Shown here piece by piece: positions 35,890 through 39,905 of a stretch of 64,000 bases of DNA. The notes beneath the pieces are model-generated. The model worked only from the letters and a program-made list of their open reading frames with translations, made no database searches and was not told the DNA's origin. Source of the DNA: Candidatus Gastranaerophilales bacterium (lineage in GTDB: Bacteria > Cyanobacteriota > Vampirovibrionia > Gastranaerophilales > Gastranaerophilaceae); contig CALUPH010000001.1 in assembly GCA_944322615.1 (NCBI GenBank), forward strand, positions 124,001-188,000. The letters run 5' to 3'. Numbering within the stretch: position 1 is the stretch's first letter; each line of letters starts with the position of its first letter. The translations under genes were made by a program, and so were the position numbers.

Positions 35890-37974
35890 ATGGCAAGAAA
35901 AGTTCCATTGGAAAGAGTAAGAAACTTTGGTATTGCTGCCCACATCGATGCAGGTAAAACAACTACCACTGAACGTATTCTTTTCTACACGGGTAAAACA
36001 CATAAAATTGGTGAAGTGCACGACGGTGCTGCTGTAACTGACTTTATGGATCAAGAACGTGAAAGAGGTATTACAATTCAATCTGCAGCTGTAACAGCTA
36101 TGTGGAAAAATCATCAATTCAATATTATTGATACTCCCGGGCACGTTGACTTCACAATTGAAGTTGAACGTTCTCTTCGTGTATTAGATGGTGTTGTTGC
36201 TGTATTTTGTGCTGTTGGTGGTGTTCAATCTCAATCAGAAACAGTTTGGAGACAGGCAAACAGATATGAAGTACCTAGAATGGTATTCATTAATAAAATG
36301 GATAGAACAGGTGCTGATTTCTATAGAGTTGTTGACCAATTAAAAAACAGATTAAATGCAAACGCTGTACCTATCCAACTACCAATCGGTGCAGAAGATA
36401 AATTTACAGGTTTAGTTGATCTTATGACAATGAAAGCTGAAATTTATACTAATGACCTTGGTACTGATATAAGAGAAGAAGAAATTCCTGCAGATCTTCT
36501 TGAAAAAGCTCAAGAATACAGAGCAGAAATGATTGAAAAAATTTCAGAAACAGACGATGATTTGATGATGAAATTTATGGAAGGTGAAGAACCTACAATA
36601 GATGAATTAAAAGCAGCTTTAAGAAAAGCAGTTTGTACAAACCAAATCGTTCCTGTATGTTGCGGTACAGCATTCAAGAATAAAGGTGTTCAATTATTAT
36701 TGGATAACGTTGTTTACTATATGCCATCTCCATTAGATGTAAAAGCTATTGAAGGTGAACTAGAAGACGGAACAAAGGTTGAAAGACACTCTAGTGAAGA
36801 TGAACCATTTTCAGCTCTTGCATTTAAAATTATGACAGACCCTTATGTAGGTCGTTTAACATTCTTAAGAGTTTATTCGGGTAAATTGACAGCAGGTTCA
36901 TATGCATTGAATGCAACAAACGGTAAGAAAGAACGTATTTCAAGATTGGTTCAAATGTATGCTGATCAAAGAAATGAAATTACAGAAGTATATGCTGGTG
37001 ATATTTGTGCAGCTGTTGGTTTGAAAGATACAACAACTGGTGATACATTGTGTGATGAAAATGCACCAATCATATTAGAAAAAATGGAATTCCCAGATCC
37101 TGTTATTTCTGTTGCTATTGAACCAAAAACAAAAGCAGACCAAGATAAAATGGGTATTGCGCTTCAAAAACTTGCTGAAGAAGACCCATCATTCAGAGTT
37201 AAATCAGATTCTGAAACAGGTCAAACAATTATTTCAGGTATGGGTGAACTTCACTTAGATATTATTGTTGACCGTCTTTTAAGAGAATTCAAAGTTGATG
37301 CTAACGTTGGTAAACCACAAGTTGCATACAGAGAAACTATCTTAGGAAATGCTGATCAAGATTCTAAATTCATCAGACAATCAGGTGGTAAAGGTCAATA
37401 CGGTCACGTTAAAATTAGAATTTCTCCGGCAGGTGAAAATGAAGGTTTTGTATTTGAAAACAAAATCGTTGGTGGTGCTATTCCAAAAGAATACATCGAA
37501 CCTGCAAGAAAAGGTATGGAAGAAGCTCTTGAAGGCGGTATCTTAGCAGGATATCCTATGATTGACGTTAAAGTTGAACTTTATGACGGTTCATATCACG
37601 ATGTTGACTCTTCAGAAATGGCATTCAAAATTGCTGGTTCTATGGCTATCAAAGATGGTTGTAAGAAAGCAAGACCTTGTATTCTTGAACCTATGATGAA
37701 GGTTGAAATCGAAATTCCTGATGAATATACAGGTACAATTATCGGTGATATTTCAAGACGTCGCGGTCGTATTGAAGGTCAAGAACCAATTGGTAATACA
37801 GGTAACGTAATCGTGAGAGCAACTGTTCCATTAGGTAACATGTTTGGTTACGCTACAGACTTACGTTCAAATACTCAAGGTAGAGGCACATTCTCTATGG
37901 AATTCTTGAAGTATGAACAAGTTCCAACTAATGTTCAAGAAGAAATTATTTCAAAATCAGGCGCTCGTGCTTAA
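35890..37974 (+). CDS. fusA: elongation factor G
   Basis: EF-G is the GTPase that drives ribosomal translocation. G1 AHIDAGKT (17-24), the switch [12 protein letters not shown]3 DTPGHVDF and G4 NKMD are all present, followed by domains II-V ending in the [10 protein letters not shown] tail. The 694-residue length is canonical. No rpsL/rpsG or tuf lies beside it, so it is outside the str operon layout. A strong terminator follows 16 bases after the stop. The ribosome site is AAAGGAAAAAG. Confidence 0.97.
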
Positions 37975-37990
37975 TTGAAGTAAAAATGTA

Positions 37991-38021
37991 AAAAGAGAGG
38001 CATTACACTTGCCTCTCTTTT
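37991..38021 (+). terminator. fusA terminator
   Basis: An 11-bp stem (AAAAGAGAGGC/GCCTCTCTTTT) with a 9-base loop is followed by T residues. Confidence 0.92.
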
Positions 38022-38181
38022 TATTGAAATTAACAATATTTATTATTAATTTATTAGTTTATTTTTTTTCTTAATAAAACAATTTATCGAAAATTGAAGA
38101 TAAATTTAAGAAATATTAAGTTTTGAAAATAATATAAATATTATAAGTCATGTTACATTACTACAAATATAGTAAAATATT
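38022..38181. other. AT-rich spacer without recognised feature
   Basis: Within the 332-base gap between fusA and the next gene, this part is almost pure A/T. I see no ORF, hairpin or repeat of note in it. Confidence 0.6.
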
Positions 38182-38210
38182 TTGAAAGTTATAAAAAAAA
38201 GTGTTATAAT
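38182..38210 (+). promoter_or_regulatory. consensus extended -10 promoter of the Ycf45-like gene
   Basis: TTGAAA (38182-38187) and TATAAT (38205-38210) are spaced by 17 bases, and TGT precedes the -10 box. The predicted start near 38217 gives a ~90-base leader. Confidence 0.8.
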
Positions 38211-38216
38211 AAAAAT

Positions 38217-38306
38217 GTAGATGTATAGCCCCGATATAGGGCGATAAAAAGTCCTAGTCGGTACAAGTAAAATACCCGAGTTCGTTAGATAAAGCGAAAG
38301 GGACAT
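38217..38306 (+). promoter_or_regulatory. structured 5' leader RNA (candidate cis-regulatory element)
   Basis: This leader is a GC-rich island in an AT-rich gap. A first hairpin pairs GCCC (38228-38231) with GGGC (38239-38242). A three-way junction follows: P1 GTCCT (38251-38255) with GGGAC (38300-38304), P2 TCGGTA (38258-38263) with TACCCGA (38273-38279, one bulged C), and P3 TTCGTT (38281-38286) with AGCGAA (38293-38298, loop AGATAA). P1 contains the AAAGGGA ribosome site, so folding could block translation. It matches no riboswitch consensus I can recall. The folding is by hand and the function is inference. Confidence 0.55.
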
Positions 38307-39905
38307 ATGGACAAAATACAATTTCACAATGACCTAAGAAGGTTAATTGAAATTTTACCGCCGAAGATTGTCGAAGCATTAAGGCCTTACAACTTGGATG
38401 ATGCAATCGAATTGGTTTTTGATTTAGGCAGGGTTGGAGAAATACGTTATTCTGATGGGAAAACAGTTTATTTAGGCGAAAGTTATATAGTTGATGAAGA
38501 TATTGAGTATATAACATCGAAAATTCAGCCATTTACAAGCGATAATCGTTCAGGTATACCTGGGACTTTGCATAGAATAAGTGCAATAAGAAACAGACAG
38601 TCGAAAGTTGTAGGTCTCACTTGCAGAATCGGTCGAGTTGTTACTGGTACTATTGCTTGTATAAAAGATATAGTTTTACAAAATAAAAGTATATTGTTCT
38701 TAGGTCGTCCTGGTGTTGGTAAGACAACTAAGCTTAGAGAAATATCAAGATTAGTTGCGGATGATTTAGGAAAAAGAGTTGTTGTTGTAGATACATCAAA
38801 CGAAATTGCAGGTGATGGAGATACTCCGCATCCGGCTATAGGTAGAGCAAGGAGAATGCAGGTTTCTCAACCTATTTATCAAAAAGATGTAATGATTGAG
38901 GCTGTTGAAAATCATACTCCTGAAGTTATTGTTGTCGATGAAATAGGTACAGAAGAAGAAGCCCAAGCGGCAAGAACTATAGCTGAACGTGGTGTTATGC
39001 TTATTGCAACTGCTCATGGTAATACTTTGGATAATTTGATAAAAAACCCAACATTATCTGATTTAGTTGGTGGTGTAAGTTCTGTAACACTAGGTGATGA
39101 TGAAGCGAAGAGACGTGGTAGTCAAAAAACCGTATTGGAAAGAGAAAAACAGCCAACATTTGATATAGTTATAGAAATTATAGATAGAAATACCTTGGCT
39201 GTATATAAAAATACTGCTGAAGCTGTTGATTATATATTACGTGGTTGGCCGATAAGACCTGAAATCAGAAAAGTTGATCAAGTATATGAAAATGCAGAAA
39301 AAGCAGTAGAAGAAGTTGCAGTTCAGGAAAAAATAAAAGAAGAAGAAGATCTTGCAAGTCAGAAACTTAAGTTTAGTTTTTCAAGACAAGAGTATGTAAA
39401 ACAAGTAAAAGATTTTAAAAAGATATATATCTATGCAGTTAGTAGAACTGTATTGGATAAAGTTCTTGAACGGCTTAATCTTCAAGCGGAAATTACAAGA
39501 AATATAGAAGAAGCTGACATTGTAATAGTTCATAAAGCATTTGCAAAAGGCGGTACTAAAATTTTAAGTATAGCAAATGATTATAAGCTTCCTATATATT
39601 ATGTACGTTCAAATTCTATGTCGCAAGTACAAAAAGTAGTAAAAGAAGCGCTTCATATAACTGATAGTGAAACTTTGCAAGGGTATTATGATGATGCCGA
39701 AAGAGCATTAGATGAAGCAAAAGCTGCTATTCAAAAAATATTAGAAGGTGCTGATAATGTTGAATTGCAACCTCAAAATCAACAAATAAGGAAAATGCAG
39801 CATGAACTTGTGGAACAGCATAATCTATCAAGTGAAAGTGTAGGTGAAGGTCCTCAAAGACGATTGAGGATTGTTGGCGGTAGTGATTTTAAGCATGCCG
39901 GATAA
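38307..39905 (+). CDS. Ycf45/SpoIIIAA-like AAA ATPase
   Basis: This P-loop ATPase is related to the cyanobacterial/chloroplast Ycf45 protein and to SpoIIIAA. An N-terminal domain ends in RSGIPGTLHRISAIRNRQ. Walker A is GRPGVGKTT (133-141), VVVDTSNEIAGDGDTPHPAIG follows, and Walker B is EVIVVDEIG (206-214). A C-terminal ~150-residue domain (FKKIYIYAVSRTVLDKVLERL onward) is as in Ycf45, but no R3H motif is visible at the end. The molecular role of the family is not established. A consensus promoter and a folded leader precede it, and a terminator follows. Confidence 0.85.
   Translation: MDKIQFHNDLRRLIEILPPKIVEALRPYNLDDAIELVFDLGRVGEIRYSDGKTVYLGESYIVDEDIEYITSKIQPFTSDNRSGIPGTLHRISAIRNRQSKVVGLTCRIGRVVTGTIACIKDIVLQNKSILFLGRPGVGKTTKLREISRLVADDLGKRVVVVDTSNEIAGDGDTPHPAIGRARRMQVSQPIYQKDVMIEAVENHTPEVIVVDEIGTEEEAQAARTIAERGVMLIATAHGNTLDNLIKNPTLSDLVGGVSSVTLGDDEAKRRGSQKTVLEREKQPTFDIVIEIIDRNTLAVYKNTAEAVDYILRGWPIRPEIRKVDQVYENAEKAVEEVAVQEKIKEEEDLASQKLKFSFSRQEYVKQVKDFKKIYIYAVSRTVLDKVLERLNLQAEITRNIEEADIVIVHKAFAKGGTKILSIANDYKLPIYYVRSNSMSQVQKVVKEALHITDSETLQGYYDDAERALDEAKAAIQKILEGADNVELQPQNQQIRKMQHELVEQHNLSSESVGEGPQRRLRIVGGSDFKHAG

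Follow-up and report, generated by a model that had tools for sequence, protein, structure and literature searches.

Does the spacer in front of a ycf45-like gene in a host-gut bacterium of Candidatus Gastranaerophilales encode an RNA that regulates the gene, and if so, in what shape? Ycf45-like proteins are widespread across the order Gastranaerophilales, and the closest named relative in the records is Candidatus Avigastranaerophilus faecigallinarum (protein identity 99%). In the open-access papers searched Ycf45 occurs mainly in plastid genome reports, and a search for Gastranaerophilales together with riboswitches found nothing. A preliminary description of the window (the whole 64,000-nucleotide stretch of DNA that was analysed, to which all coordinates refer) had read the bases ahead of this gene as a candidate regulatory RNA, structured and closing over the ribosome site. 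Both folding and comparison support that general reading, and the leader, 38217-38306, is a real structured element; the fold favoured by orthologs is not the one first drawn.

The locus and its promoter

The ycf45-like gene forms a single-gene unit between an elongation factor G-like gene upstream and a convergent threonine-synthase-like gene, both neighbours being named from a reading of their translations:

35890-37974, gene reading as elongation factor G
37989-38023, terminator-like hairpin 3' of the elongation factor G-like gene
38158..38174, no strand assigned, near-palindrome TTACTACAAATATAGTA, immediately 5' of the -35 box
38182..38210, + strand, extended -10 sigma-70 promoter, TTGAAA-17-TATAAT, 11/12 matches, TG before the -10 box
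38307..39905, + strand, gene for the Ycf45-like protein, 532 aa
far side of the ycf45-like gene, convergent gene reading as threonine synthase

Pfam and NCBIfam searches agree with the naming of the downstream product as a Ycf45-like ATPase, finding a SpoIIIAA-type ATPase, a PF25516 domain and, at the C-terminus, an R3H domain (Pfam E 4e-11). Orthologs of the gene were not found in four assemblies (G036, G037, G050 and G146), which may be incomplete.

The consensus promoter that had been placed ahead of the leader is present as claimed, with a TG extension, and is kept in the aligned leaders of orthologs; its position predicts a transcription start at about 38217, some 90 bases before the gene. 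The leader is also, as first noted, a GC-rich island within A/T-rich spacer, with a GC content of 0.42, where the upstream spacer has 0.12-0.16.

The near-palindrome just ahead of the promoter, which presumably resembles BlaI/MecI-type operators, is likely a dedicated, if putative, transcription-factor site: TACTACAnnnTGTAGTA-like sites occupy the equivalent position in many genera of the family. Within its own genome TTACTACAAATATAGTA has its sole exact copy here, and the number of palindrome copies there does not exceed that of a reversed-pattern control, so that no regulon is seen. Two further near-palindromes that we inspected suggested nothing.

A conserved hairpin and the proposed junction

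The MFE fold of the leader (-24.1 kcal/mol, z -3.58, with 0/200 dinucleotide shuffles as good) consists of a long hairpin, CCGAU.AUAGGGC/GUCCUAGUCGG, and a separate stem-loop, CCC-[UUCGUU..AGCGAA]-GGG, here called H1 and P3. The preliminary description had instead drawn a 5' hairpin and a three-way junction closed over the ribosome site by a stem P1:

38228..38230, + strand, conserved GCC, unpaired in the H1 fold, 5' of H1
38231..38261, + strand, hairpin H1, CCGAU.AUAGGGC / GUCCUAGUCGG, with unpaired A 38236 and a variable loop, 38243-38250
38262..38267, + strand, invariant UACAAG, unpaired in the supported fold, adjoining H1
38275..38302, + strand, stem-loop P3, in which CCC (38275-38277) pairs with GGG (38300-38302) and masks the Shine-Dalgarno sequence
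38281-38286/38293-38298, + strand, inner hairpin of P3, UUCGUU/AGCGAA, across a purine internal loop
38297..38302, + strand, Shine-Dalgarno sequence AAAGGG, present in nearly all orthologs
38251..38304, + strand, P1 of the junction, GTCCT (38251-38255) / GGGAC (38300-38304), a possible alternative pairing that excludes H1

To the earlier reader the leader fitted no familiar riboswitch consensus, and the catalogue searches were equally empty: Rfam 15 gave no match in the entire window at the gathering threshold, and none in region 38100-38420 even at E<=10.

To compare the two architectures across orthologs we took leaders from 41 genomes of the genus; a covariance model (R1) built from 5 of them yielded 32 matches, which were aligned. 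The H1 and P3 pairings hold in 96% of cells of this alignment, against 22-57% for slid versions of the same structure, and nine of the 16 modelled pairs have both-side changes, found in 25 cells versus 3.5 expected (0/500 shuffles). Eight of these nine pairs lie in H1, where ten were modelled. Because the alignment had been fitted to the H1 and P3 structure, we added an arm-swap test that is free of alignment: H1 arms fold at a mean of -17.5 kcal/mol with their own partners and -14.1 kcal/mol when exchanged (z -8.7; 0/20,000 permutations). Placed on the protein tree, each H1 pair at offsets -3 to -12 shows 4 to 8 changes, and the sisters L010 and L045 have near-identical proteins yet different H1 sequences. 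Judged from these sequences, the H1 fold is supported by compensatory changes, and H1 is conserved as a shape more than as a sequence.

The same comparison gave the junction 1 both-side change versus 0.8 expected over the 32 leaders; the check for covariation that had been proposed for it thus found compensatory changes in H1, and the aligned leaders lack them in the junction, the very outcome named in advance as refuting it. What stands of the original candidate is its promoter, GC island, stable fold and lack of an Rfam match; its architecture as drawn does not. In the MFE fold GTCCT (38251-38255) is part of the 3' arm of H1. As junction and H1 use common bases they cannot coexist, and the junction could be an alternative state only; it survives merely in that role, its pairing being possible in most species.

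Such a second state would make the leader a bistable switch, riboswitch-like or triggered by a protein, with H1 as the open state and the Shine-Dalgarno sequence locked in P1 in the other. The conserved GCC (38228-38230) and C38231 can pair with GGGC (38239-38242) in an alternative 5' hairpin, GCCC/GGGC, which would free GUCC, so that P1 (GUCCU/GGGAC), P2 and P3 would form a three-way junction. P1 can still form in 97% of cells; GUCC hardly varies at its G and U, nor does the AC that follows GGG, although other genera vary in this spacer; and H1 retains a G-U wobble in 29 of 31 leaders where a G-C pair would give more stability, which P1 would account for, since the U must then also pair with A. 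In six species (L006, L012, L016, L036, L039 and L040) the alternative fold lies at or close to the energy minimum, and leaders that lack GUCC, in the L011/L019 clade and in g44, also lack GGGAC. Invariance of the P1 strands is nevertheless not covariation, as the single both-side change makes plain, and forcing P1 (GUCC/GGGAC) on the window sequence gives -14.3 rather than -24.1 kcal/mol, a cost of 9.8 kcal/mol. Individual leaders also speak against the switch: in L037 GUCCU has become AUUCC with compensation in H1 and an unchanged GGGAC, L069 keeps GGGAC without GUCC, and in g44 H1 is replaced altogether. We regard a bistable switch as unlikely. Less likely again is the fuller proposal of a new class of bistable Gastranaerophilales RNA, in which H1 would interconvert with a Shine-Dalgarno-locking junction on a trigger from a ligand or Ycf45; were it true, it would give the first handle on what the poorly characterised Ycf45 ATPase family responds to.

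Conserved sequence also lies beside H1. UACAAG is kept in nearly all leaders of the genus and in the sister genera g44 and g38, and is altered in L019; ACC(U/C)GAG is likewise nearly invariant in the genus leaders, as is GCGAAAGGGACAU ahead of the start codon. H1 is dispensable, as it has been lost in two members of the genus that form one clade (L011 and L019), and g44 has in its place a hairpin of unrelated sequence, ACUUUC AAAAA GAAAGU, which adjoins ACAAG and is followed by ACCUGAG and P3.

A simpler account of these features would give H1 the role of a 5' hairpin for stability or against nucleases and leave P3 only to tune a constant low translation, with no signal involved. The position of H1, some 14 nt from the predicted 5' terminus, would suit such a role, as would its conservation in shape more than sequence, its loss in one clade and the single-copy, single-gene occurrence of the element. 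Stability alone, however, leaves unexplained both the invariant unpaired UACAAG and the conserved ACC(U/C)GAG beside H1, and we think this account improbable.

Several leaders depart from the common size. In L012, L016, L036, L039, L040 and L041 the loop of H1 is enlarged, to about 35-55 bases, and further hairpins are predicted within it; the arms of H1 are retained. A leader from goat cecum (L032 1250-1503, G038) has an insertion of about 150 bases between UACAAG and ACCUGAG, both halves remaining recognisable. Two further candidates were set aside by eye: a leader peptide, whose ATG at 38221 of the window leader is missing from L002, and a pseudoknot joining UACAAG to the loop of P3, the loops being unconserved.

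Masking of the Shine-Dalgarno sequence across the order

Nearly all genomes of the genus carry this leader ahead of their ycf45-like gene. Among 286 genomes of the order the model matched 22 (21 in the genus, 1 in g44), with one copy in each, always 5' of ycf45 and with no paralogous copies; the window's own genome has one match, the second listed having an E of 9.4. Genera beyond the genus and its close relatives have neither H1 nor UACAAG.

P3 follows a different pattern. Within the genus its outer stem joins CCC or CCU to the Shine-Dalgarno GGG around an inner hairpin of CGC/GCG or UUCG/CGAA; the predicted pairing probability of the Shine-Dalgarno GG is 0.98, and P3 by itself shows little covariation. 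Most other genera place a different stem over the Shine-Dalgarno sequence, commonly GCC...hairpin...AGAAAGGC, and the masking pairings vary by lineage (GCC/GGC, CCC/GGG, UCC/GGA, ACC/GGU, UUCCU/AGGGAA and UCCC/GGGA). Over 22 genera the mean predicted pairing of the GG is 0.84, versus 0.57 when the leaders are shuffled upstream; in g27, g32 and g45 masking exceeds that of shuffles little or not at all. Exchanging tails between genera gave z values of -1.8, -2.7 and -1.5 in three draws, which is no more than suggestive of covariation of P3 across genera. The Shine-Dalgarno sequence is thus predicted to be paired in most lineages. From comparison of the leaders, the order-wide part of the element appears to be the masking stem, and the H1-UACAAG platform an addition of the genus and its close relatives.

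In bacteria of the host gut, a Shine-Dalgarno sequence covered by a short stem that a purine internal loop interrupts might also suggest an RNA thermometer, in which a weak P3 would melt at host temperature. Prediction runs the other way: in nine leaders the predicted pairing of the Shine-Dalgarno GG never falls below 92% between 20 and 55 C, though nearest-neighbour loop energies are rough. Because none of the predictions up to 55 C showed melting, we rejected the thermometer, which we consider very improbable.

Proposed control of ycf45 and known systems

On balance, the leader probably acts in cis to control translation of the single ycf45-like gene downstream. Transcription would start about 90 bases 5' of the gene, and the RNA would form H1, then the exposed invariant UACAAG, then P3, pairing GG(G) of the Shine-Dalgarno sequence. 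Since P3 pairs the Shine-Dalgarno sequence, initiation would be low in this ground state, whose fold is itself shown by comparison. We infer that a trans-acting factor may read the H1-UACAAG platform and shift the equilibrium of P3; association with a single gene and the lack of paralogous copies point more to a trigger specific to this gene than to a metabolite riboswitch in wide use. R3H is a nucleic-acid-binding domain type, which makes the protein itself the simplest candidate factor, and the most economical scheme would be autogenous control by the gene's own product through its R3H domain. That step we offer tentatively, as possible though doubtful, on the basis of domain type only.

Together, a dedicated promoter, an operator-like site and a covarying leader at one gene suggest that the dose of ycf45 is controlled at two levels. 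The leader is one more structured RNA of uncultured gut bacteria, so far uncatalogued, and a defined RNA offers a way to seek either the signal or the RNA target of the Ycf45 protein itself.

Among known systems, RNA thermometers such as the ROSE and FourU types share with this leader a short imperfect stem over the Shine-Dalgarno sequence, but differ in the melting that prediction denies it and in their Rfam families, none of which it matches. Translational riboswitches resemble it in having a structured leader, a masked Shine-Dalgarno sequence and possibly an alternative pairing; here, by contrast, no Rfam family matches and the element serves a single gene without paralogous copies. Unlike in the preQ1 riboswitch, the H1 loop is unconserved, which argues against a preQ1-like loop pseudoknot. 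Autogenous leaders that sequester the ribosome-binding site include those of ribosomal proteins; none of the Rfam leader families matched here, and the binding protein is a candidate only, but the resemblance is otherwise broad: one leader for one gene, hairpins with conserved unpaired bases, a Shine-Dalgarno sequence held in a stem, and sequence that drifts under a kept structure. The leader belongs to a familiar type, that of cis-acting leaders with a masked ribosome site, of which it is an uncatalogued example.
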